From: Pseudomonas quebecensis
GTDB taxonomy: Bacteria; Pseudomonadota; Gammaproteobacteria; Pseudomonadales; Pseudomonadaceae
Assembly (NCBI RefSeq): GCF_026410085.1
Contig: NZ_CP112866.1
Location: 3,781,001-3,845,000, forward strand
Length of the DNA stretch: 64,000 nucleotides
Reading direction: 5' to 3'
A program made the translations under genes and the position numbers. The notes under the pieces were generated by a model, which did not search any database, had not been told where the DNA came from, and saw only the letters and a list, made by a program, of their open reading frames with translations. Below, piece after piece: positions 11,436-62,341 of the stretch; within the stretch, counting starts at the first letter, position 1, and every line of letters starts with the position of its first letter.

Positions 11436-12782
11436 TCAAGCGGTCGCGGCAACAGCCGGCACCTCAACCGCACTCAACCCCTCCTTCATGCGCTTGGCAT
11501 CCCGCACAAAGCTGCGCGAGGCCTGGAACAGAAACAGCATCGTCAAGAACAGCGCCACCGGGATCAGGTACATGGCGTCGTGCAGGCCCACGGCTTTGTA
11601 GGCTTCCGTCATCTGTTGCGCACCGTCGGCGTACATCGCCGAATGGGCAAAGTGGTCGGACAAACCGCCCACCACAATCGGCCCCATGCCGCCGCCCAGC
11701 AGGTACAACCCGGCAAAAAACAGCGCCATCGCCGTGGCCCGCAGGCGCGGTTCCACTACGTCCTGAATCGCGGTGTAGACGCAGGTGTAGAAGTTGTACG
11801 CAAACAGCCAGCCGACACTGAACAGCGCGACAAACACGCCGATCTCGATGCGCCCGGCATGCAGGGCCCAAGCGGTGGTGACGGTGGAAATAATCAGGCT
11901 GCACGCGGCAAATAACAGCCGGCCATTGGCAATCCGCTGATGGATCTTGTCGGCGATCCAGCCGCCCAGTGTCAGGCCGATCAGGCCTGTGACGCCGACG
12001 ATGAAACCGGTGGCCACCGCCGCGTCCTGCAACGGCAACAGGAAATAGCGCTGCAGCATCGGCACCAGGAACGAGTTGCAGGCATAGGTGGCGAAGTTGA
12101 AGCACAACCCGGCCAGCACCAGCCATAGGAACGTCGGCACCGCCAGCACGCGGCGGATCGGGCGGTCGACGCGCGCCTGGGACACCTGCACCGCCTCCGC
12201 CGCGCCACGCTTGGGTTCTTTGATATAGAACATGAACACCGCCAGGATCAGCCCCGGCACCGCGGCGATAAAGAACGGCGCGCGCCAGCTGTCGAACGCC
12301 TTGACCATCGCCCCGATGGTAAAGAACGCCAATAGCAGGCCCAACGGTAGCCCGAGCATGAAAATCCCCATGGCGCGGGCGCGGCGGTGCGCCGGGAACA
12401 AGTCGCCGATCAGCGAGTTGGCCGCCGGCGCGTAGCTCGCTTCACCGATGCCGATCCCCATGCGCACCAGCAGAAAACTCCAGAAACTGCCTACCAGGCC
12501 GTTGATCGCCGTGAGCCCGCTCCAGGCAAACAGCCCCCAGCCCATCAACTTGCTGCGCGAGCCGGTGTCGGCCAGACGCCCAAGGGGCAGGCCGGCGATG
12601 GCATAGACGATGGTAAAGGCGGTGCCGATGATGCCGAGCTGAAAGTCACTCAGGTGCCATTCCATGCGGATGGGTTCGATGATGATTGCCGGAATGGTTC
12701 GATCGAAGAAATTGAACAGGTTGGCGAGGAACAGCAGGAACAGAATGCGCCAGGCATTCGCCGCTTGGGTCGAGTTCTGCAT
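11436..12782 (-). CDS. MFS transporter, spinster-like
   Basis: A 448-residue major facilitator with twelve predicted helices. The first helix has the NLFNFFDRTIPAIIIEP motif and loop 2-3 has GLPLGRLADTGSRSKLMGWG, both usual in the spinster-like/anion-organic acid branch. RMGIGIGEASYAPAANSLIGDLFP is the helix 4-5 signature of the same group. The substrate cannot be inferred. It is convergent with rapA and divergent from the CxxCxxCC gene at 13028, with a 245-base gap in between that holds promoters only. Confidence 0.85.
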   Translation of the reverse strand: MQNSTQAANAWRILFLLFLANLFNFFDRTIPAIIIEPIRMEWHLSDFQLGIIGTAFTIVYAIAGLPLGRLADTGSRSKLMGWGLFAWSGLTAINGLVGSFWSFLLVRMGIGIGEASYAPAANSLIGDLFPAHRRARAMGIFMLGLPLGLLLAFFTIGAMVKAFDSWRAPFFIAAVPGLILAVFMFYIKEPKRGAAEAVQVSQARVDRPIRRVLAVPTFLWLVLAGLCFNFATYACNSFLVPMLQRYFLLPLQDAAVATGFIVGVTGLIGLTLGGWIADKIHQRIANGRLLFAACSLIISTVTTAWALHAGRIEIGVFVALFSVGWLFAYNFYTCVYTAIQDVVEPRLRATAMALFFAGLYLLGGGMGPIVVGGLSDHFAHSAMYADGAQQMTEAYKAVGLHDAMYLIPVALFLTMLFLFQASRSFVRDAKRMKEGLSAVEVPAVAATA

Positions 12783-13402: not shown

Positions 13403-13540
13403 CATCAAACGCTATGGGCAGCATGCCGAAAAGGTTCTTAGCAAAGTGCCATTATCCCTGGCAAATTCCGCGAGGCTTCTATACTCGACCTCATAGGTCA
13501 TCGCCTTAGGCCGTGACGTGACGCTATGACAGGACATGCT

Positions 13541-15805
13541 ATGGAATGGCTGGGTCTGCATTTCTTTACCGACCTCCCCACCAACGGGCATTTATTACTC
13601 AATTGCAGTCATAACCCGTTTCTGGTGCTGCTGGCTTATCTGGTGGCCTGCGCGGCAGGGTTCGGCACGCTGGACATGGCCGAGCGGGTCGGCCATGTCG
13701 AGGCCCCCACCGCGCGCCGACATTGGCGCTGGCTGGGGGCCGGCTGCCTGGCTGGGGGCATCTGGTCGACACATTTCATCAGCATGCTGGCCTTCCAGGC
13801 GCCCATCGCAATTCACTACGAACTGACGATGACCTTCGTGTCATTGCTGATCGCGCTGATTGCGTCGTTGTTTGCCATGAAAACCCTCAGCCATCCCAAG
13901 CTGCGGCTGCTTCAATACCTGCTGGCCTCGGTGTGGATGGGACTTGGCATCGCCTTGATGCATTACGTCGGCATGTCAGCGATACGCTCCCAGGCATGGA
14001 TGTACTTCGACTCATGGCTGCTGCTGGCCTCGATCGGCATTGCCATCGGTGCCAGCCTCGCCGCGTTGTTGCTGTCGAATTATCTGCGCACCGGGGCCGG
14101 GATCTTCCACCAACTGCTTAAATATGCCGCCAGCCTGGTCCTGGGCGCGGGCATTATCAGCATGCATTTCACTGGCATGGCCGCCATGCAGATGGTAGTG
14201 CCTACCGGTGCTGACCTCTCGGTTGCGCCCAACAATAACCCCATGCAGCTGGGCCTGTCGGTGGCGGTGATCACCTTGCTGGTAATCGGCAGCAGCATCA
14301 GCGCGGCGCTGGCGGACAAGAAACTGCAACACAAGGAACGCGACCTGCGTCGGGTCAACGCCCTGCTCAGCGAATTGGACCAGGCCCGCGCGTCCCTGCA
14401 GCAGGTGGCCCATTACGATGCGTTGACCAGCCTTCTCAACCGTCGCGGGTTCAACCAGATTTTTGCGGAAAAAGTCGCGGAAAAGACCGCCACCCACGGC
14501 ATGATGGCGGTGATCTTCCTCGATATAGACCACTTCAAGCGCATCAATGACAGCCTCGGGCACGACGCCGGCGATCAACTGCTGACCGTACTGGCCAGCC
14601 ATATAAAAGGCTCGGTGCGCAGTCATGCCGACGTAGTCGCGCGCTTTGGCGGCGATGAATTCTGCATCCTGATCAGCATCCATCACCGCGACGAAGCGCG
14701 CCATCTGGCCCAGCGCATCATGCAAAAAATGAAAGAACCCGTGGAACTGGCCGGCCGTCGGATGGTGATGACCACCAGCATTGGCATCAGCCTGTTTCCC
14801 GATGACGGCATGACCTGTGAAGAACTGTTGAAAACCGCCGACCTGGCGCTGTATCAGTCCAAGGATGCGGGACGCAACAGCCTGAATTTTTTCAGCTCCA
14901 ACTTAAAGACCCGCGCCACCCTCGAACTGCAGTTGGAAGAAGAGCTGCGCAACGCCCTGCGCACCGGCACCCAACTGGTGCTGTTCTATCAACCGATCTT
15001 CGACATGAAACTGGGCAAGGTCAGCCGCCTGGAGGCTCTGGTGCGCTGGCAGCACCCACAGCACGGGCTGCTCGCACCCGACCGGTTTATCGAGATCGCC
15101 GAAAGCAACGGCCTGATCGCCGAGCTGGACCATTGGGTACTGCGCCAGGCCTGTCATGACCTCAGCCAGCTCACCGACCGAGGCTACACCCAGCTCACGC
15201 TATCGGTGAATTGCTCGGCCCTGAACCTGGCGCGCGACGAGCTGGCGGATGAAATCGAAGATGCCCTGCGCTTCAGCGGCCTGGCCGCCAACCGCCTGGA
15301 ACTGGAAGTGACCGAGAATGCGCTGATGGGCAATATCAGCAGCACCCTGGCGCTGTTGCGGCAAATACGTTCGCTCGGGGTATCGCTGGCCATCGACGAT
15401 TTCGGCACTGGCTACTCGTCCCTTGCCTACCTCAAGCGCTTGCCGCTCAACACGCTGAAGATCGATCGCTCCTTTATCCAGGACATTCCCAAATCCACCG
15501 CCGACCTGGAAATCGTCCAAGCCATCATCGGCATGGCCCATACCCTGCACCTGCAGGTGGTGACAGAAGGCGTGGAAACCCACACCCAGTTCGAACTGCT
15601 TCATAGCCTTGATTGCGACTTCATCCAGGGCTACCTGTTGAGCCCGGCGGTGGGCATCGGCGAGATCATCGGCGTAGTACAAGGCATTGAGCGGCATAAT
15701 CCGCTGCATACCTTCACGCCTGCGGCGAACAAAGAGCCTGCACCGTCCAAAGCGGTGTCGCCAAACCGCGGCAGCGCCGGCTCAACCGTGAGGCCAATCC
15801 GCTGA
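13541..15805 (+). CDS. MHYT-GGDEF-EAL membrane protein, cyclic-di-GMP cyclase/phosphodiesterase
   Basis: A 754-residue inner-membrane protein. The N-terminal MHYT sensor domain has about seven helices with three motif copies (THFIS ~77, MHYVG 140-144, MHFTG ~208), proposed to bind copper and sense NO, O2 or CO. A GGDEF domain follows with an intact GGDEF at 370-374, then an EAL domain with EALVRW at 498-503 and DDFGTGYSS. I chose the ATG at 13541 because AGGA precedes it by 7 bases; an ATG at 13526 has no SD. Synteny with rapA and the YkgJ gene points to NbdA (PA3311), but P. aeruginosa NbdA has a degenerate cyclase motif, as I recall. MucR, of the same architecture, is the alternative. Confidence 0.9.
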   Translation: MEWLGLHFFTDLPTNGHLLLNCSHNPFLVLLAYLVACAAGFGTLDMAERVGHVEAPTARRHWRWLGAGCLAGGIWSTHFISMLAFQAPIAIHYELTMTFVSLLIALIASLFAMKTLSHPKLRLLQYLLASVWMGLGIALMHYVGMSAIRSQAWMYFDSWLLLASIGIAIGASLAALLLSNYLRTGAGIFHQLLKYAASLVLGAGIISMHFTGMAAMQMVVPTGADLSVAPNNNPMQLGLSVAVITLLVIGSSISAALADKKLQHKERDLRRVNALLSELDQARASLQQVAHYDALTSLLNRRGFNQIFAEKVAEKTATHGMMAVIFLDIDHFKRINDSLGHDAGDQLLTVLASHIKGSVRSHADVVARFGGDEFCILISIHHRDEARHLAQRIMQKMKEPVELAGRRMVMTTSIGISLFPDDGMTCEELLKTADLALYQSKDAGRNSLNFFSSNLKTRATLELQLEEELRNALRTGTQLVLFYQPIFDMKLGKVSRLEALVRWQHPQHGLLAPDRFIEIAESNGLIAELDHWVLRQACHDLSQLTDRGYTQLTLSVNCSALNLARDELADEIEDALRFSGLAANRLELEVTENALMGNISSTLALLRQIRSLGVSLAIDDFGTGYSSLAYLKRLPLNTLKIDRSFIQDIPKSTADLEIVQAIIGMAHTLHLQVVTEGVETHTQFELLHSLDCDFIQGYLLSPAVGIGEIIGVVQGIERHNPLHTFTPAANKEPAPSKAVSPNRGSAGSTVRPIR

Positions 15806-16009
15806 CGTCGAATCCTTGGCAGTTAGCCATCATTTATCTAAAGAACTCCGACGAACGGCCGATCCATGAACGTCCGGCCAGGTTTTGCCGAGCCCATCAA
15901 GCCTAAGGCCAATGGTTCAGGACAAGGACGCACTGCAAAGTCGCGAACAACCCAATCCGTGATGGCCCTTTGATATTTTCCAGCCATCCGCCCAGGCACA
16001 TGGCGCACA

Positions 16010-18187
16010 ATGACTTCTAAAAATAACTCTGCCACCGTGGTATCCGACGTGTTGCTCACAGCTCCTGCGGAAAAACCCTCAGGTTCCAAGTCATTGAGCT
16101 CCACCTCCGCGCTGGCCACCCAGCAATACCTGTACTTCACCGAGACCAATACCGACCGCATCCTCGACAATCTCGACGGTCTGCGTGACATGGTGTTCCC
16201 GCGTCCGCCTCACGCCGAGGGCGATGGCGAACAGCACAGCGACCAGGAATTCCCCTCGGTGTGCCTGATCGGCCTGGGTCGTTGCGGTTCGAACATCGCC
16301 CTGGATGTGGCAGAGCTGGTGTACAACGCGCGCAAGTTTTACCTGAACGAGTTCAGCACTGAAGACAAGTCGATCGATAAGGGTTACAGCCCGGCCCAGT
16401 GGATCCGCAACAACCTGCGCCTGGGCAATGGCAAGGCCAGCAAACCGGTATTCCTGGTGGAGCCGCTGGTCATGCTGGGCGATCTGGACAAGGACATCGC
16501 CGGGCGCATCCGCTTCTCGCGCAAGAACGAAAAAAGCGGGTTCCTGCGCGACTACAGCAAAATGAAAATCATGGACCTGTCGGAAGTGCACGCCGGTGGC
16601 GCCGGCAACGCGCCAATCCTGGGCCAGTACCTGGCCAAGATCATCCTCAATAAAGACACCCAGCGCTTTTCCAGCCCCGACTGGAAGATGATTCACTCGT
16701 ACCTCATCGATTCATGCGGCATCAAGGCCAACCAGTCGCGCCTGTATTTTTCGATCTTCAGCGCCGGCGGTGGCACCGGCTCGGGCATGGCTTCGGAGTT
16801 CGGCCTGGCCCAGCAGCATTCGTACATGAACAAGACATTCGACACCAAGCCCGCCGACGAGCACGACAGCAAGAGCGGCCACGCCTTCGTGTTCGAGCCG
16901 ATCTTTACCAGCGGCATTTGCGTGCTGCCGAATATTTCCGACCATCGCAGCGAGATGTCCGAGGCCTTGCACATCAACGCCGGGCGTCTGCTATGCAAAT
17001 ACCTGTCGGAAGAATGGGATTTCTCTTACAACTTCGCCAATGAAGACAGCAGCGAAGCCAGTGTGAAAGGGCGTATCCGGCCCTGGAACGCCATGATGCT
17101 GATCTCCAACGACATCATGCGTTATGCCGAAGAAAGCGATGACGGCAACATCCAGAACATTGATGTCAATGCCATGGAAAAACACGCCAACCAATACATC
17201 TCACAGCAGATCTTCAACATTCTTACGGCCCAGGCCGTGACCACCGACTACGATCAGAACTATTTCCGGCGCGCCGGCATCGACATCGGCGAGACCATTC
17301 GCCTGGATGCCAACGACTTGTTTATGAGCCTGGCCGGTCCTGTGGCGATTGCGTACGCTGAATCCGTCGTCCCCGAAACCCCGGCGCCCTCGAATGACAA
17401 ATTCAAGGTGTTCGAAAAAGAACCTCAGCGCCTGAACATCGACGACCTGTTCTTCCGGTCCATCGACCTGCCGCATTTCAACAAGGTCACCCAGGCCATC
17501 GAAGGCATCAGCCTGTTGCCGATCGAGTCCAAGCGCTACAAGGCATCCCTGGAGCAATACAAGAACTCCGGCTATGACGCAGCGGCGCTGCACGACCTGC
17601 ACTTCTTCAAGAACTGCTCGTCGGTGGTGTCGATCGTCTCATTGCCCAAGGACTACAAGCTGTCCTACATGGATCTGAATCGGCTCAAGACGCACCTCAA
17701 CAGCCTGTTCCCCAACACCACGCTCAAGCGTTATGCCCTGGTGATCGGCGCGTCGGCCAACCTGTCGCTGACCACCCTGATCGCTAAGAGCCCGTGCCTG
17801 TCGGACGACTTCCTGACGCTGATCGTGGCGTTTATCAAACGCTGTTTCGCCCGCAACCCCTACCGATTCGATGACACCCTGGACAACTCGATCCTGGACT
17901 TCATCATCCACGAGGATTTCGATGAGGAGCGCATCGACGAACTGCTCAACGAGTTCGAGAACCCGGCGAAAATCCTCGATACCAACTGGTACGCGATCAA
18001 ACCGATGTACGAGAAGAAGTACCGCGAGCTGATCAACGACAAAGAGAAGTTCGTGTCCATCAATGACATTCGCCTGTCACGGGACTGCGTGAAAAAGGCG
18101 ATCAAGTACCTGCGCGAGATTTACCGTCACCGCATCGGCAAGACCAAGGTGATTTCACTGAACAACCACACCGGCAAGACCGGCTAG
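16010..18187 (+). CDS. Tubulin/FtsZ-superfamily GTPase-like protein of 725 residues
   Basis: A large tubulin-superfamily protein of unknown function. After a Ser/Thr-rich, probably disordered N-terminus (1-80), the nucleotide-binding loops appear in the right order: GLGRCGSNIA (88-97, loop T1), GGAGNAPILG (196-205, T3), the tubulin signature GGGTGSG (253-259, T4), MLISND (363-368, T6, the Asn expected to touch guanine) and RLDAND (431-436, T7, keeping both acidic residues but with Arg for the usual Asn). About 290 residues follow with no recognised domain and a basic end. FtsZ is about 400 residues and phage PhuZ about 315, so this is neither. The SD is weak. It reads alone, after the MHYT-GGDEF-EAL gene (204-base gap), with no TubR-like partner nearby. 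Confidence 0.85.
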   Translation: MTSKNNSATVVSDVLLTAPAEKPSGSKSLSSTSALATQQYLYFTETNTDRILDNLDGLRDMVFPRPPHAEGDGEQHSDQEFPSVCLIGLGRCGSNIALDVAELVYNARKFYLNEFSTEDKSIDKGYSPAQWIRNNLRLGNGKASKPVFLVEPLVMLGDLDKDIAGRIRFSRKNEKSGFLRDYSKMKIMDLSEVHAGGAGNAPILGQYLAKIILNKDTQRFSSPDWKMIHSYLIDSCGIKANQSRLYFSIFSAGGGTGSGMASEFGLAQQHSYMNKTFDTKPADEHDSKSGHAFVFEPIFTSGICVLPNISDHRSEMSEALHINAGRLLCKYLSEEWDFSYNFANEDSSEASVKGRIRPWNAMMLISNDIMRYAEESDDGNIQNIDVNAMEKHANQYISQQIFNILTAQAVTTDYDQNYFRRAGIDIGETIRLDANDLFMSLAGPVAIAYAESVVPETPAPSNDKFKVFEKEPQRLNIDDLFFRSIDLPHFNKVTQAIEGISLLPIESKRYKASLEQYKNSGYDAAALHDLHFFKNCSSVVSIVSLPKDYKLSYMDLNRLKTHLNSLFPNTTLKRYALVIGASANLSLTTLIAKSPCLSDDFLTLIVAFIKRCFARNPYRFDDTLDNSILDFIIHEDFDEERIDELLNEFENPAKILDTNWYAIKPMYEKKYRELINDKEKFVSINDIRLSRDCVKKAIKYLREIYRHRIGKTKVISLNNHTGKTG

Positions 18188-18554
18188 GTTGAGGCGCGGC
18201 CATCGCGGCCTGGAAATCCATGGGCAGCCTCCTGACGCTGTGGTGAGCGGGCTTACTGGGTGAGCGGGCTTGCCGTGGTGAGCGGGCTTGCCCCGCGCTG
18301 GGCCGCGAAGCGGCCCCATTCCAGACGACACGGGGCAACCCCCTGCCCCACTCACTCACAAAATCACAACCTTTACTGCCACACCCGGAAACAATTCCCC
18401 ACGCATTCCTTCCCACGCAAAACTGTTCCCGTGACGTTTACGTCACCCTGATCTGTGACCTTTCTTCACGGCAAGGTGCCATCACCGGCGCAGCGGTTAC
18501 TCCGCTACACACTCGACGCGCAAAAATACATGCACCCTTTTAGTGCGCCGCTCC
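18188..18554. other. 367-base intergenic region with REP-type repeats
   Basis: Left two thirds: repeat cluster (see 18242-18352). Right third (about 18360-18554): no gene and no clear signal seen. Two genes converge here (the tubulin-like gene and the DUF2288 gene), so no promoter is required. Confidence 0.6.
18242..18352. repeat. REP-type cluster with a triplicated 13-base unit
   Basis: GGTGAGCGGGCTT occurs three times in tandem (18242-18254, 18259-18271, 18277-18289), spaced 17 and 18 bases apart. The third copy continues into GCCCCGCGCTGGGCCGCGAAGCGGCCCC-like sequence, the known pseudomonad repeat head. An oppositely oriented relative (ACGGGGCAACCCCCTGCCCC) follows near 18329-18348. The layout suggests a REP doublet whose left half expanded by slippage. 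It sits between convergent genes. Confidence 0.7.
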
Positions 18555-18857
18555 TCACACCGCCCTTTCCTGGATCAGAATCCACGGCGAAACCACAACC
18601 GCCCATAGGCTCGGGTCACGCTCGACCAAGTCCAGCGCCCGCGTCGCAGACACTTCGCCCAGGCTGCCGGAGGCCAGCCAGGCGGCGACTTTGTCGCGGT
18701 TATCTTCGGCCATGCCCTCAGCCGCCTCGATCAAATCCAGGCTGGCATCGACCCACAATAGGGCACCCTTGGCAAAGAACGGCTCAAGCTCCTTCCAGGA
18801 GATTTCGGCGGTTTCACCGAGCAGCTTGGCATAGAGGGTGCTAGGTTCTTGCGTCAT
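18555..18857 (-). CDS. DUF2288 family protein
   Basis: A 100-residue cytoplasmic protein, MTQEPSTLYAKLLGETAEISWKEL..., ending LWAVVVSPWILIQERAV. The pattern 'LYAKLLGET-SWKELEPFFAKGALLWVD' is the hallmark of DUF2288, a small family of unknown function found in many gamma-proteobacteria and cyanobacteria. I chose the ATG at 18857, preceded by AAGGTGG; the longer frame adds only ten residues without an SD. It is divergent from braC, as PA1075 appears to be in P. aeruginosa. I can name no function. Confidence 0.82.
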   Translation of the reverse strand: MTQEPSTLYAKLLGETAEISWKELEPFFAKGALLWVDASLDLIEAAEGMAEDNRDKVAAWLASGSLGEVSATRALDLVERDPSLWAVVVSPWILIQERAV

Positions 18858-19212
18858 GGGAGTCCACCTTGGAAAAAGTCGGCGCAATCATAGCGTCACG
18901 TCTCGTTTAGAAAAACCCAAGGCAGAAAAACCCGGTTGCAATTGAGTCATCGAGAAAAACGTCAGGAAAGCCAAGGATTGCCGAAGCGTCTGTCACCACC
19001 CGCGCCGCAATTCTGTCTTTTCCTGTCGTTAAAGCGACACCCACGGAATTTGCCCCTGGCAGCCAGCTTTTCAAGCGATCAACCGGCGCTCTACACTGTA
19101 CCGGTACAGTTGCCAGGCGGTTGCCGGGGGGATATTCCAGATATCCGATCCGGTTCAGCTGCCGATCAGGCCGCTAGAACTATAAAAAATACAACAGTAA
19201 GAGTGGAGCACT
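18858..19212. promoter_or_regulatory. 355-base divergent promoter region, DUF2288 gene / braC
   Basis: No gene. Close to braC there is a TATAAA at 19181-19186, a candidate -10 about 27 bases before the ATG, without a clear -35. The SD GAGTGGAG precedes braC. The stretch near 18950-19030 holds a short open frame without SD or similarity. I could not identify a leucine-responsive (Lrp) or NtrC site with confidence. Confidence 0.45.
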
Positions 19213-20340
19213 ATGAATAAGGCTACTAAGCAGATTTCCAAACTGTTTGCCGCTATGGTCCTGGCTGGGGTTGCGGGCCATTCGTTCGCTGCCGACACCA
19301 TCAAGATCGGCATCGCCGGTCCGAAGACCGGCCCTGTGACCCAGTACGGTGACATGCAGTTCATGGGCGCCAAGCAGGCCATCGCCGACATCAACGCCAA
19401 GGGCGGCGTCGACGGCAAGATGCTCGAAGCCAAGGAATACGACGACGCCTGCGATCCCAAGCAAGCCGTGGCCGTGGCCAACAAAGTGGTGAACGACGGC
19501 GTCAAGTTCGTGGTCGGTCACCTGTGCTCCAGCTCTACTCAACCCGCCTCGGATATTTATGAAGACGAAGGCGTCATCATGATTACCCCGGCAGCCACCA
19601 GCCCGGAAATCACTGCCCGTGGCTACAAGCTGATCTTCCGCACCATCGGCCTGGACAGCGCCCAGGGCCCCGCGGCCGGTAACTACATCGCCGACCACGT
19701 GAAGCCCAAAGTCGTTGCGGTACTGCACGACAAACAGCAATACGGTGAAGGCATCGCCACCGCGGTCAAGCAGACCCTTGAGAAGAAAGGCGTAAAAGTT
19801 GCCGTCTTCGAAGGCCTGAACGCCGGTGACAAAGATTTCTCCTCGATCATCCAGAAACTCAAGCAAGCCAACGTCGACTTTGTCTACTACGGCGGCTACC
19901 ACCCTGAACTGGGTCTGATCCTGCGCCAGTCCAAGGAAAAAGGCCTGAACGCCAAGTTCATGGGGCCGGAAGGCGTCGGCAACGACTCCATCTCCCAGAT
20001 CGCCCAGGACGCTTCCGAAGGCCTGCTGGTAACCCTGCCGAAATCCTTCGACACCGATCCGGCCAACAAAGCCATCGTGGAAGAGTTCACCAAGAACAAG
20101 CAGGACCCGACCGGTCCGTTCGTGTTCCCGGCCTACTCGGCCATCGAAGTCATCGCCGGCGGTATCAAAGCCGCCAAGAGCGAAGACACCGCCAAAGTGG
20201 CTGAAGCCATCCACGCCGGCACCTTCAAGACCCCTACCGGCGACCTGAGCTTTGACAAAAAGGGCGACCTGAAAGACTTCAAGTTCGTGGTCTACGAATG
20301 GCACTTCGGCAAACCTAAAACCGAAGTTTCTCCTCAGTAA
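19213..20340 (+). CDS. braC: Branched-chain amino acid-binding protein BraC
   Basis: Periplasmic solute-binding protein for leucine, isoleucine and valine (also alanine/threonine in P. aeruginosa). It is 375 residues with a signal peptide ending VAGHSFAADTIKIG (cleavage after SFA, around residue 26). The type I periplasmic fold begins DTIKIGIAGPKTGPVTQYG, and the Cys pair in DDACDPKQ and VGHLCSSS is that of LivJ/LivK/BraC. A terminator-like hairpin 20 bases after the stop separates it from braDEFG, which should leave more BraC transcript than permease transcript, as expected for a binding protein. Confidence 0.95.
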   Translation: MNKATKQISKLFAAMVLAGVAGHSFAADTIKIGIAGPKTGPVTQYGDMQFMGAKQAIADINAKGGVDGKMLEAKEYDDACDPKQAVAVANKVVNDGVKFVVGHLCSSSTQPASDIYEDEGVIMITPAATSPEITARGYKLIFRTIGLDSAQGPAAGNYIADHVKPKVVAVLHDKQQYGEGIATAVKQTLEKKGVKVAVFEGLNAGDKDFSSIIQKLKQANVDFVYYGGYHPELGLILRQSKEKGLNAKFMGPEGVGNDSISQIAQDASEGLLVTLPKSFDTDPANKAIVEEFTKNKQDPTGPFVFPAYSAIEVIAGGIKAAKSEDTAKVAEAIHAGTFKTPTGDLSFDKKGDLKDFKFVVYEWHFGKPKTEVSPQ

Positions 20341-20360
20341 GCCAGGCATTACTGGTCAAC

Positions 20361-20390
20361 AAGCCCACTGTGAAAGCAGTGGGCTTTGTT
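20361..20390 (+). terminator. Partial terminator between braC and braD
   Basis: AAGCCCACTG-TGAAAG-CAGTGGGCTT followed by TGTTTT. A perfect 10-base stem with a broken T run, positioned to end some braC transcripts while letting others continue into braDEFG. Confidence 0.85.
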
Positions 20391-20569
20391 TTACGAGGTT
20401 TATGGGCCATGTCACCCGCGATCCGGGCGCTGGCTCACCTGAAAATCTTAAAACCGTCACCAGCGGTTCGCTGGCAAACGCTACGTGCAAATGTGCTCAC
20501 AGAACACAGCACGGGGCCGGAACATGACTCCACCAGTGAAATGCGTATCGGGTTTTTAGGAGCGCTGTA

Positions 20570-21489
20570 ATGCCTGAGATCTATCATTTTTTCCAACAGC
20601 TGGTTAATGGCCTGACCATTGGCAGCACCTATGCCTTGATAGCCATTGGCTACACAATGGTTTACGGCATCATTGGAATGATCAACTTCGCCCATGGCGA
20701 GGTGTACATGATTGGTTCCTACGTGGCCTTCATCGCCCTTGCCGGGCTGGCCATGATGGGTATCCACTCCCTGCCGCTGTTGATGACCGCTGCCTTCATT
20801 GCATCGATCGTCGTAACCAGTGCCTATGGCTACAGTATCGAACGCGTTGCCTACCGCCCCCTGCGCGGCAGCAACCGTCTGATCCCGTTGATTTCCGCCA
20901 TCGGCATGTCGATTTTCCTGCAGAACACCGTATTGCTGTCCCAGGACTCCAAGGATAAATCCATCCCCAACCTGATCCCGGGGAGCATCTCTTTCGGCCC
21001 AGGCGGCGCGGAAGAAGTCCTGATTTCCTACATGCAGATCCTGGTCTTCGTGGTCACACTGGTGGCGATGCTGGGCCTGACCGTGTTTATCTCTCGCTCC
21101 CGTCTGGGCCGCGCCTGCCGGGCCTGCGCCGAAGACATCAAGATGGCCAACCTGTTGGGCATCAATACCAACAACATCATCGCCCTGACCTTCGTGATCG
21201 GTGCCGCGCTCGCTGCCGTCGCGGCGGTGCTGCTGAGCATGCAGTACGGCGTGATCAACCCCAACGCCGGTTTCCTGGTAGGCCTCAAGGCCTTTACCGC
21301 AGCGGTCTTGGGCGGTATCGGCAGTATCCCGGGCGCCATGCTCGGCGGGCTGGTGCTGGGTGTGGCCGAAGCGTTTGGCGCCGATATTTTCGGCGACCAG
21401 TACAAGGACGTCGTGGCGTTCGGCCTGTTGGTCCTGGTGTTGTTGTTCCGTCCGACCGGCATTTTGGGCCGTCCGGAGGTTGAGAAAGT

Positions 21490-21493
<4 letters not shown>
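20570..21493 (+). CDS. braD: Branched-chain amino acid ABC permease BraD (LivH)
   Basis: A 307-residue inner-membrane permease subunit of the high-affinity branched-chain amino acid importer. It starts [33 protein letters not shown], the LivH signature, and contains [20 protein letters not shown], the cytoplasmic EAA-like loop that docks on the ATPases. TTTTAGGAGC gives a good SD. A 229-base leader separates it from braC and holds the hairpin at 20361. The stop overlaps the braE start by 4 bases. Confidence 0.96.
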
Positions 21494-22739
<1,246 letters not shown>

Positions 22740-22743
<4 letters not shown>

Positions 22744-59587: not shown

Positions 59588-59976
59588 GGCGGGTGTCCTG
59601 AATAGCGAGGTGGAAAAATTCTGTGAGGCATCTTACCGGGGCCGGCGTTGGGGTTCAAAGGGCGTGGGGGTTTTCTTGATGAATGCGCCCTGGACCTGGA
59701 GCCGCAGCCAGCGGGGCCGGGAGCCATCGCGTTGCGTGGGGTGTCGGTAAATACCACCGCCAGTCACGAAAATAGAGAAACCTTCGGAAATACCATTGGC
59801 ACGTTCCGGAAAAAGGGTTAAGGTGGCGCCACTGTGCTGCTTGTGTCACTGAGAATCTCTACACGATATGTTGAATTTCGATCCAACCATCTCCAAGAAT
59901 TTTTCCTGCTCTTTGCACTCAGTCTCGGCCAGGGCTTTTCCTGAGTCGCAGTTAACTTTGTCCAAGGAGATACACC
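59588..59976. promoter_or_regulatory. 389-base divergent region, dcd / capB, with probable cold-shock leader
   Basis: No gene. The right half (from about 59800) becomes AT-richer and should hold the capB promoter and a long 5' untranslated leader, as is usual for cold-shock genes; the SD AAGGAG lies just before the ATG. A TTGGCAC at about 59795 recalls a sigma-54 -24 element, but the -12 GC is absent. No cold-box sequence was recognised with certainty. Confidence 0.45.
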
Positions 59977-60186
59977 ATGTCTAATCGCCAAACTGGTACC
60001 GTTAAGTGGTTCAACGATGAAAAAGGCTTCGGCTTCATCACTCCACAATCCGGTGACGACCTGTTCGTTCACTTCAAAGCTATCCAATCCGACGGCTTCA
60101 AAAGCCTGAAAGAAGGCCAACAGGTTTCTTTCATCGCTACCCGCGGTCAGAAAGGCATGCAAGCTGAAGAAGTTCAAGTTATCTAA
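59977..60186 (+). CDS. capB: Cold-shock protein CapB (CspA family)
   Basis: A 69-residue single cold-shock domain that binds single-stranded RNA/DNA. RNP1 KGFGFI and RNP2 LFVHF are both intact. The sequence [23 protein letters not shown] closely resembles CapB of P. fragi and related CspA homologues in Pseudomonas. AAGGAG precedes the ATG by about 8 bases. Terminated by a strong hairpin. Whether it is cold-induced or constitutive cannot be told from sequence. Confidence 0.93.
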
Positions 60187-60204
60187 CTTGTACTGACTTA
60201 GTCG

Positions 60205-60237
60205 AAAAGACCCCGCCCTTAAAAGCGGGGTTTTTTT
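60205..60237 (+). terminator. Rho-independent terminator of capB
   Basis: CCCCGC-CCTTAAAA-GCGGGG with flanking A and a seven-T run, about 25 bases after the capB stop. The A tract on the left would let it work weakly in the other direction too. Confidence 0.92.
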
Positions 60238-60286
60238 ATGCCTGGGATTTGGTATCCAAACCCACTTGATGCTTGAAAAATAAAAA

Positions 60287-60375
60287 TGTGGAAGGGGGCT
60301 AGCCCCCGATGGCGGGTCAGCAGTCACATTTGCATTGACTGTCACACCGCTATCGAGGGCAAGCCCCCTCCCACA
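60287..60375. repeat. REPIN: inverted REP pair between capB and rpoS
   Basis: Left REP at 60287-60309 (GTGGAAGGGGGCT-AGCCCCCGA, one changed core base) and right REP at 60353-60375 (inverted, with TCGAGGGCAAGCCCCC), separated by 43 bases. Same family as 11341-11419. It sits just downstream of rpoS, where its hairpin could protect or end the rpoS message. Confidence 0.88.
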
Positions 60376-60395
60376 TTCAGGCATTCAAGCAGACG

Positions 60396-61400
60396 CTATT
60401 GAAACAGCGACTCACTCGACAGGCCATTTTTCTCCAGGATCTCACGCAGGCGCTTGAGCCCTTCAACCTGGATCTGCCGCACCCGCTCGCGGGTCAGACC
60501 GATCTCCAGGCCTACATCCTCCAAGGTACTGCTCTCATGGCCGCGCAGGCCGAAGCGGCGAATCACCACTTCACGTTGTTTGTCCGTAAGTTCAGACAAC
60601 CACTGGTCAATGCTTTGGGACAGATCATCGTCCTGCAACAGCTCACAAGGGTCTGTAGGGCGATCATCCGTGAGGGTGTCCAGCAGGGTTTTATCCGAAT
60701 CCGGACCCAGCGAGACGTCGACCGAAGACACGCGCTCGTTAAGACCAAGCATGCGCTTGACCTCCGCTACTGGTTTTTCCAGCAGGTTGGCGATTTCTTC
60801 GGGTGAGGGTTCATGATCGAGTTTTTGTGTCAGCTCACGCGCCGCCCGCAGATAGACGTTGAGCTCCTTGACCACATGGATCGGCAACCGGATCGTGCGG
60901 GTCTGATTCATGATCGCCCGTTCGATGGTCTGACGAATCCACCAGGTGGCGTAGGTCGAAAAACGGAAGCCGCGTTCAGGATCGAACTTTTCCACTGCTC
61001 GAATCAGGCCAAGATTGCCCTCCTCGATCAGGTCCAACAGGGACAGCCCACGATTGACGTAGCGCCGGGCAATTTTCACTACCAGCCGCAGGTTGCTTTC
61101 AATCATGCGCTTGCGCCCAGCCGGATCGCCTTTTTGCGACAAGCGCGCAAAATGGACTTCCTCTTCAGGGGTAAGCAGAGGGGAAAAGCCGATTTCATTG
61201 AGGTACAGCTGGGTCGCATCAAGCGCCCGGGTGTAATCAATGTATTTGTGTTGCTTTAACGCGGAGGAGTTCTTGGATTTGGTTCGAACTGAAGGTGTAG
61301 CAGGTCCCTCATTCGACATCGATTCCATAGCGATGCTGGTCTCCATAAGGAGAACCTCATCGTCGATGTCAAACTCCGGCGCTTCTTTACTGAGAGCCAT
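60396..61400 (-). CDS. rpoS: RNA polymerase sigma factor RpoS (sigma-38)
   Basis: A 334-residue stationary-phase and stress sigma factor. It begins [21 protein letters not shown], a pseudomonad RpoS N-terminus. Region 2 shows [41 protein letters not shown], and region 4 has [26 protein letters not shown]. Region 1.2 holds [24 protein letters not shown] lies about 8 bases before the ATG. The main promoter is expected inside nlpD, as in other gamma-proteobacteria; I did not locate it. Confidence 0.97.
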
Positions 61401-61504
61401 TGTTATAGTCCTTTGGTGAGTTCGACCTCAAGCTCAAGCGACGCCTTTATCCTTGGCAACGCTGGAGCCTGTTCCTTCTACGCTAGGAACAGGCTGGCAA
61501 CACA

Positions 61505-62341
61505 TCAACGACGGGGTAGGAATTGCAATGGATCTACAGGCTTCCCTTGACGGCGAATCTCAAAGTGCAGTTTCACCCGGTCCGTACCAGTTGACCCCAT
61601 TTCGGCAATTGTCTGTCCGACTTTGACCTGCTGTCCCTCCCGAACCAACAGCCTGCGGTTGTGACCGTAAGCACTGACGTAGGTGTCACTGTGTTTGATG
61701 ATGACGAGTTCGCCGTAACCCCGTAGACCACTCCCGGCGTACACCACTGTCCCATCAGACGCAGCTAAAACAGGCTGTCCCAAATCCCCGGCGATATCAA
61801 TGCCTTTATTCAAACTACCGTTTGAAGAGAATTTTCCAATCAACACTCCGTTTGAGGGCCATCCCCAACCGGTCGGCGCAGGCCCCGCAGGTGGCAACGG
61901 CGCGGGCGCCGGCTTGTTTGCGGGGGTCGGCACCGCCGTGCCTGCAGGCCGCGTAGTGATGGTGGTTTTGCTGGACGACGAGGCCGAAGATCCAGAGGTT
62001 GTCACAACTGTCGTAGGCGCAGAACCGCTACGCCCATCGAAGCGAATGGTCTGGCCTGGATGAATCGTATACGGCACGGGAATATTGTTTCTAGCTGCGA
62101 GCGCCTTGTAGTCCCAGCCATAACGGAAGGCAATGGAGAACAACGTATCGCCCTTGCGTACCACGTATTGTCCAGTGGTGACGGTAGGTTTTTGCGGTAC
62201 CGAGCTGTTGCGGTCAACGACTCGTGCGCCACTGCTTGGCGAGCTGGAGCAGCCGACCAACACGGAACTGAAGACGAGGCCAAGCACCAGTCGCTGAAAA
62301 CTTGTTTTACTCATACGCTGCGCAAGACCTGTGAGACTCAC
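61505..62341 (-). CDS. nlpD: NlpD, LysM/M23 murein hydrolase activator lipoprotein
   Basis: A 278-residue outer-membrane lipoprotein that activates the cell-separation amidase. Lipobox VLVGCSSS, LysM domain QYVVRKGDTLFSIAFRYGWDYKALAARNNI, a Ser/Thr/Pro linker, and a C-terminal M23 (LytM) domain. In that domain the first metal ligand is Asn (LNKGIDIAG in place of H-x3-D) and the HxH motif reads KLHFE, so it should be catalytically dead, the normal state of NlpD. I chose the GTG at 62341 because AGGGAG lies 6 bases upstream; an ATG at 62314 has a weaker site. Confidence 0.92.
   Translation of the reverse strand: MSLTGLAQRMSKTSFQRLVLGLVFSSVLVGCSSSPSSGARVVDRNSSVPQKPTVTTGQYVVRKGDTLFSIAFRYGWDYKALAARNNIPVPYTIHPGQTIRFDGRSGSAPTTVVTTSGSSASSSSKTTITTRPAGTAVPTPANKPAPAPLPPAGPAPTGWGWPSNGVLIGKFSSNGSLNKGIDIAGDLGQPVLAASDGTVVYAGSGLRGYGELVIIKHSDTYVSAYGHNRRLLVREGQQVKVGQTIAEMGSTGTDRVKLHFEIRRQGKPVDPLQFLPRR

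Follow-up and report, generated by a model that had tools for sequence, protein, structure and literature searches.

FtsZl2-family protein of Pseudomonas quebecensis and its recurrent cyclic-di-GMP neighbours

The window, a stretch of 64,000 nt of Pseudomonas quebecensis contig NZ_CP112866.1, encodes a 725-aa FtsZ-like protein that can be assigned firmly to the FtsZl2 family of the tubulin/FtsZ superfamily by the published family description. The FtsZ-like gene lies beside a gene for a GGDEF-EAL protein of cyclic-di-GMP (c-di-GMP) metabolism, and such neighbours recur in a second genus, Marinomonas. As far as literature searches show, a recurrent c-di-GMP neighbour of FtsZl2 is new here. We regard this neighbour as the most informative feature of the locus, because its Marinomonas counterpart has another kind of sensor domain, and as a lead that makes FtsZl2 function testable.

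The FtsZ-like protein and its family

The 725-aa open reading frame is a real gene under strong purifying selection, with a dN/dS of about 0.008–0.10 against four Pseudomonas relatives. As the initial annotation pointed out, the product is about twice the size of FtsZ (383 aa in E. coli). Its tubulin-type loops follow one another in the order T1, T3, T4, T6, and T7.

16010..18187, + strand: FtsZl2-family tubulin/FtsZ-like protein, 725 aa, ATG start; identified by its loops, its conservation, and the published family description
16271..16294, + strand: T1 loop GLGRCGSN, residues 88–95
16595..16624, + strand: T3 loop GGAGNAPILG, residues 196–205; pairs with FtsZ T3 in the profile comparison
16766..16786, + strand: T4 signature loop GGGTGSG, residues 253–259; pairs with FtsZ T4
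17099..17113, + strand: T6 loop LISND, residues 364–368
17300..17317, + strand: T7 loop RLDAND, residues 431–436; Arg at the FtsZ Asn position, both acidic residues kept, invariant
17318..18184, + strand: conserved C-terminal region, the 289 residues that follow T7; no Pfam match reached the cut-off

In the tubulin/FtsZ superfamily, GTP is bound by T1 to T6, and in a filament each T7 loop works on the GTP held by the adjoining subunit. The loops, which had been read from the window sequence, held across homologues and are no chance pattern: all five strings (GRCGSN for T1, HAGGAGN for T3, those of T4 and T6, and RLDANDL for T7) were found in 134 of 134 homologous loci, a pool of two collections in which some genomes are counted twice. 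Among 280 database homologues, T1 and T7 were present in every sequence, T4 (GGGTGSG) and T6 in 279 each, and the strict T3 string in 258. The replacement of the T7 Asn by Arg with retention of both acids was likewise borne out, as Arg431, Asp433, and Asp436 were invariant in 78 aligned sequences. The C-terminal region, estimated earlier at about 290 residues and left without assignment, agreed with the 289 residues listed above. The Ser-rich N-terminal extension is real in the window protein but variable across the family; Marinomonas proteins start shortly before a conserved YFTE motif. A short reading frame overlapping the start codon seemed conserved, but its ATG was lost in several relatives.

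Placement of the window protein in the tubulin/FtsZ superfamily, as first proposed from the loops, is supported by their order, by PF00091 matches, and by a weak profile comparison. PF00091 (Tubulin) matched the window protein with 18.3 bits (E 0.003), which is below the curated cut-off of 33, and matched 40 of the 40 members of a family alignment at E up to 0.1, the best at 3.1e-5. Tubulin_2 (PF13809) gave 18.5 bits (E 0.0013) for the window protein, again below the curated cut-off (27), and matched 34 of the 40 members at E up to 0.1. The profile check proposed in the initial annotation thus returned both tubulin models, each below its curated cut-off for the window protein, and no match to FtsZ_C in the Pfam scan. 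Comparison by hhalign with an 8-sequence FtsZ-type profile brought T3 and T4, in order, opposite their FtsZ counterparts (P 0.007), a weak result with an hhalign probability of only 5%; in the comparison with E. coli FtsZ alone, T4 was the only loop paired. A PDB sequence search with the window protein gave no match, and a PDB search with the family profile returned only uL23 matches at chance level (best E 0.27). Matches to NCBIfam pip_yhgE (E 0.043) and to Pfam DUF6562 (13 of the 40 members, best E 0.0026) were also taken as chance.

The protein had been considered undescribed, which the literature corrects: Makarova & Koonin (2010; PMC2875224) named FtsZl2 as a proteobacterial family found by a GGGTG(S/T)G motif search, with PFL_1302 of P. 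fluorescens Pf-5 as its type, and since then it has counted as one of the most divergent branches of the superfamily. The window protein agrees with the family description in each feature examined. The T1, T4, T6, and T7 motifs of the nucleotide domain are all present; the C-terminal part, described for FtsZl2 as about 300 aa unlike other families, corresponds to the unmatched 289 residues; and homologues occur in the P. fluorescens group and in several other Proteobacteria. The published description further gives FtsZl2 a mixed alpha/beta structure in the C-terminal part and no coiled-coil domain. The legend of Figure 1 in the same paper includes Marinomonas sp. and P. fluorescens among its species, with the family of each row not stated; close homologues of the window protein come from both. 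That paper reports no associated genes for FtsZl2 and offers no hint of function from gene context; here, GGDEF-EAL neighbours recur in two genera. Among the open-access papers searched, PMC2875224 alone carries the locus tag PFL_1302 and, of those consulted, it alone describes FtsZl2; the string ‘FtsZl2’ also occurs in PMC7327170, and no later functional work on the family was found in these searches.

According to its description in PMC2875224, FtsZl1 has no recognisable T6-H7, carries a coiled coil, and is often accompanied by VWA, kinase, GTPase, or OmpA genes; Tubulin_2 proteins were handled as divergent FtsZ-like sequences in PMC9871819. The window protein shares with them the superfamily and the weak PF13809 match. 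That match is under the cut-off, so membership in FtsZl1/Tubulin_2 was rejected, and none of the FtsZl1-type partner genes was found among the window ORFs scanned. With FtsZ, the window protein shares the T3, T4, T6, and T7 loops and both T7 acids, but it differs in its nearly doubled length, in the Arg of T7, and in having no FtsZ_C match. PhuZ and TubZ carry the GTPase loops of the superfamily, as does the window protein. They differ from it in that the FtsZ-like gene was not found in the phage and plasmid collections searched and has no partition partner among the neighbours scanned.

Distribution of the FtsZ-like gene

The description of the protein as an orphan did not survive the survey of its distribution, as 566 stretches of genome contigs encode a relative. 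Counting the window genome, 27 of 36 Pseudomonas genomes carry it (28 of the 57 genomes of that sample overall), as do 29 of 48 Marinomonas genomes. Wider samples, which overlap and each contain the window genome, gave 16 of 293 genomes for the order, 2 of 274 for the class, and 5 of 299 for the phylum. Among the best 120 of about 650 matches, the other named sources were Rheinheimera, Arsukibacterium, Cellvibrio, Alkalimonas, Celerinatantimonas, Agarivorans, Paraglaciecola, and one Vibrio. For the remotest members of the alignments, identity was still about 56%. High identity together with patchy presence suggests horizontal spread and loss of the gene.

No match to the FtsZ-like protein was found in 50,697 phage records, in 72,556 plasmid records, or in PHROG, and a pattern scan designed for close relatives found none in viral contigs. 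Absence from these collections contradicts a role in phage or plasmid partition. The FtsZ-like gene represents a chromosomal, patchily spread gammaproteobacterial family. In keeping with the initial annotation, there was no phage or Tub gene among the neighbouring ORFs scanned (8 and 9 proteins in two scans, the FtsZ-like protein included). Anti-phage defence was rejected, since neither the FtsZ-like protein nor six neighbouring ORFs had a PADLOC match.

Gene neighbourhoods in Pseudomonas and Marinomonas

In the window, the FtsZ-like gene and the c-di-GMP gene that had been reported beside it occupy a variable slot between an MFS transporter gene and the liv genes.

11436..12782, - strand: MFS transporter, left border of the variable slot
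13526..15805, + strand: MHYT-GGDEF-EAL membrane c-di-GMP enzyme, 205 bp upstream of the FtsZ-like gene on the same strand
18555..18887, - strand: small conserved gene of about 100 aa, right border of the slot
19213..22743, + strand: livK-livH-livM branched-chain amino acid ABC transporter genes, right border of the slot

The neighbourhood survey across Pseudomonas, which had been suggested as a check, revealed that 20 of the 27 gene-bearing genomes have MHYT-GGDEF-EAL immediately upstream, in the same orientation; it was elsewhere in 2 and had no orthologue above the cut in 5. According to PMC8846402, MHYT is an integral membrane sensor domain whose activity is unknown. Among the best 80 genome-contig loci, 75 had a same-strand GGDEF-EAL gene at a distance of no more than 1.5 kb (one being an EAL-only piece), and these count as few events because the loci are close relatives. 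There was no GGDEF-EAL gene in the examined flanks of the remaining 5 loci, nor in those of 7 of 19 further Pseudomonas loci. Genes in related loci were called by a simple ORF script; L131 and L188 were assigned from other comparisons, and L029, for which an over-long ORF made the distance negative, was counted as adjacent. The GGDEF and EAL signatures were intact in nearly all such neighbours surveyed. Neighbours that look broken were one with an internal stop (G009), one with a split frame in Marinomonas (G909), and the EAL-only piece (L060).

Most Pseudomonas loci examined share the same chromosomal slot, and between MFS and liv it holds the FtsZ-like gene alone, MHYT-GGDEF-EAL alone, or both. 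In a close relative (G031), six flanking proteins are 86–99% identical to those of the window and the FtsZ-like gene is missing, with similarity to the window resuming at 18376. Hence, the FtsZ-like gene can probably be dispensed with. Its product is conserved to about the same degree as the adjacent liv transporter proteins, yet it is absent from some close relatives.

In Marinomonas, a gene for an Amt-PAS-GGDEF-EAL protein, whose ammonium-transporter (Amt) and PAS domains were seen in the three examples scanned with Pfam, adjoins the FtsZ-like gene on the same strand in 20 of the 29 gene-bearing genomes, downstream in 16 (including G909 with its split frame) and upstream in 4. Using the GGDEF-EAL part alone (420 residues) as the query, together with frame lengths, we located the orthologue elsewhere in 5 of the 29 genomes and found none at 400 bits or more in 4. 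In 7 of 11 loci examined from the 15 Marinomonas genomes that lack the FtsZ-like gene and keep the GGDEF-EAL gene, Amt-GGDEF-EAL still lies beside the same four-gene module. The FtsZ-like gene therefore most likely joined a resident c-di-GMP gene in this genus. In the tree of the FtsZ-like gene, the upstream and the downstream order each correspond to a well-supported clade (100/99 and 99/98), so the genes are adjacent on both sides of the order change. The order may have changed once while adjacency was preserved, two insertions may have flanked one gene, or a local duplication may have been followed by different losses.

Outside these arrangements, G361 has a same-strand PAS-GAF-PAS-GGDEF-EAL gene 2.2 kb downstream, separated from the FtsZ-like gene by a single gene for a 640-residue protein without a Pfam match. 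Two other families were sampled with two genomes each: those of f20 had no GGDEF-EAL gene within about 7 kb, and those of f14 had none in the examined flanks, which were partly short.

Strength of the c-di-GMP link and possible roles

Presence and absence of the two genes did not co-vary significantly. The GGDEF-EAL gene is kept in 4 of 9 Pseudomonas and 15 of 19 Marinomonas genomes that lack the FtsZ-like gene, and Fisher tests gave p 0.08 and 0.70, respectively, for orthologue sets read by hand at cuts of 400 bits for Marinomonas and 268 bits for Pseudomonas, with at most 37 candidates scored per Marinomonas genome. A dependence of the FtsZ-like gene on the GGDEF-EAL gene is thus unsupported by this test. 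Five Marinomonas and two Pseudomonas genomes carry the two genes at separate sites. Each gene is also found without the other, so the link is not an obligate one. Under the same scoring of at most 37 candidates, each Marinomonas genome had 9 to 32 GGDEF-EAL-type matches. With about 0.5% of genes being of GGDEF-EAL type, at about one gene per kb, a same-strand neighbour would arise by chance in about 0.5% of insertions, a rough figure computed after seeing the data for a link that was itself noticed post hoc. Different GGDEF-EAL genes in two genera and adjacency in both gene orders make a chance origin unlikely, and we put a functional link between the FtsZ-like protein and c-di-GMP at slightly below even odds.

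We infer a cytoskeletal or membrane-shaping function, as the initial annotation had suggested, and from its sequence the FtsZ-like protein is likely to polymerise. GTP would be bound between T1 and T6, and subunits would polymerise head to tail, each GTPase site being completed by the T7 acids of the adjoining subunit. The C-terminal region may consist of a tubulin-type second domain and an extra part, and would carry partner or membrane contacts. The polymer may serve an accessory, non-essential envelope or polar function tuned to surface or motile life; an accessory role would follow from the absence of the gene in related genomes. Its local partner would be the membrane c-di-GMP enzyme encoded next to it. 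Amt domains are membrane-embedded. As MHYT and Amt are both membrane domains, both kinds of neighbour would put a c-di-GMP enzyme in the inner membrane. Taken as a whole, FtsZl2 as a divergent chromosomal branch of the superfamily that forms a GTP-binding polymer with an accessory envelope or polar role and a local c-di-GMP partner is the reading we tentatively prefer, at slightly less than an even chance. A more specific and rather unlikely version makes FtsZl2 a lifestyle cytoskeleton, in which a GTP-driven filament would work together with the membrane-anchored c-di-GMP enzyme beside it (with an MHYT sensor in Pseudomonas and one of ammonium-transporter type in Marinomonas), and a local c-di-GMP source would set filament assembly, or be positioned with its help, as cells switch between swimming and life on surfaces. 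If true, a tubulin-type filament would be tied to a central second messenger of bacterial lifestyle change. If the link to different c-di-GMP enzymes in two genera holds, it would offer a first handle on FtsZl2 function, one open to direct testing in laboratory strains of the P. fluorescens group.

A quite possible, if somewhat doubtful, alternative is that the FtsZl2 filament has a role of its own, with the GGDEF-EAL neighbours as mere passengers in variable chromosomal slots where lineage-specific genes accumulate. The pair sits in variable slots in both genera, so shared permissive sites could explain the adjacency. The three kinds of content of the Pseudomonas slot, the Amt-GGDEF-EAL gene that stays beside its four-gene module without the FtsZ-like gene, and the non-significant co-occurrence all fit such passengers. 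Such passengers fit less well with the differently built GGDEF-EAL proteins of two genera, whose genes share the strand of the FtsZ-like gene wherever they lie within 1.5 kb of it, and with adjacency in both Marinomonas orders when the rough chance estimate is so low. The protein could also be a GTP-binding regulator that keeps the tubulin pocket without polymerising. The invariant Arg of T7 and the long region after T7, which could block the longitudinal contact, would agree with this. We consider it improbable, since the invariant T7 acids and nearly invariant pocket loops are expected if inter-subunit GTP hydrolysis is kept, and filament formation was predicted for FtsZl2 in 2010 (PMC2875224).

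Modulation of cell division through FtsZ itself is suggested by the common superfamily and by the canonical FtsZ that P. fluorescens also has (PFLU0952 in SBW25; PMC6828691). It appears quite improbable, as no division gene was present among the neighbours scanned, and searches for the FtsZ-like gene came up empty in 9 of 36 Pseudomonas genomes and in 19 of the 48 from Marinomonas. The patchy distribution across genera might also reflect a positioning filament of PhuZ/TubZ type from a phage or plasmid that became stranded in the chromosome. The constant chromosomal slot in most Pseudomonas loci and the absence of matches in the phage, plasmid, viral contig, and PHROG searches make this highly improbable.

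Two further findings speak against the c-di-GMP link. Gaps between the paired genes were about 200–1000 bp, which does not point to a single transcript. In 85 non-redundant upstream regions, scanned with patterns for FleQ, sigma-54, sigma-28, and AlgU sites, no FleQ box and no strict sigma-54, sigma-28, or AlgU-like pattern was detected. A loose sigma-54-like pattern was present in 5 of the 85 regions.

Edges of the FtsZ-like gene in Pseudomonas

At many Pseudomonas loci, the start codon of the FtsZ-like gene is overlapped by a short frame (MAHNDF followed by a stop; window 16000-16020), the ATG of which is gone in several loci. Downstream of the 3' end, short repeats of the GAGCGGGCTTGC type, which we take to be REP-like, are clustered at window 18240-18310. 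Short repeats resembling this cluster were also found in G031, a close relative, at the site without the FtsZ-like gene. Elsewhere in the window, G+C content was lowest (0.542 among 2-kb steps) at 60001-62000, and our own gene calls gave no gene at 59588-60395, a stretch that overlaps this step.

Neighbouring genes in other lineages

In Marinomonas, an ammonium-transporter domain is fused to PAS-GGDEF-EAL, and this fusion is possibly an ammonium-sensing c-di-GMP enzyme. The GGDEF-EAL part, searched alone, scored at least 400 bits in 40 of 48 Marinomonas genomes, mostly in frames of approximately 1000 residues.

L118:4726-7785 (-), ammonium transporter-PAS-GGDEF-EAL fusion, Marinomonas
L119:10199-13309 (+), the same fusion, Marinomonas
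L123:10295-13345 (-), the same fusion, Marinomonas
L126:5004-6923 (-), 640-residue protein directly 3' of the FtsZ-like gene, G361 (another lineage)
L124:167-1549 (-), lipoprotein-like gene (judged by eye)

The lipoprotein-like gene lies 5' of the FtsZ-like gene and divergent from it in both genomes of the family-level group f14. A Pfam scan of the 640-residue protein returned no match; by eye, it probably has a membrane segment close to its N-terminus.

A plasmid FtsZ-like gene

A divergent FtsZ-like gene, annotated as hypothetical, adjoins a PcfJ-domain gene on a Marinomonas algicola plasmid.

L223:2911-3873 (NZ_CP061942.1, 104746-105708), divergent FtsZ-like gene, 320 residues

Its product is possibly a plasmid tubulin-like protein.
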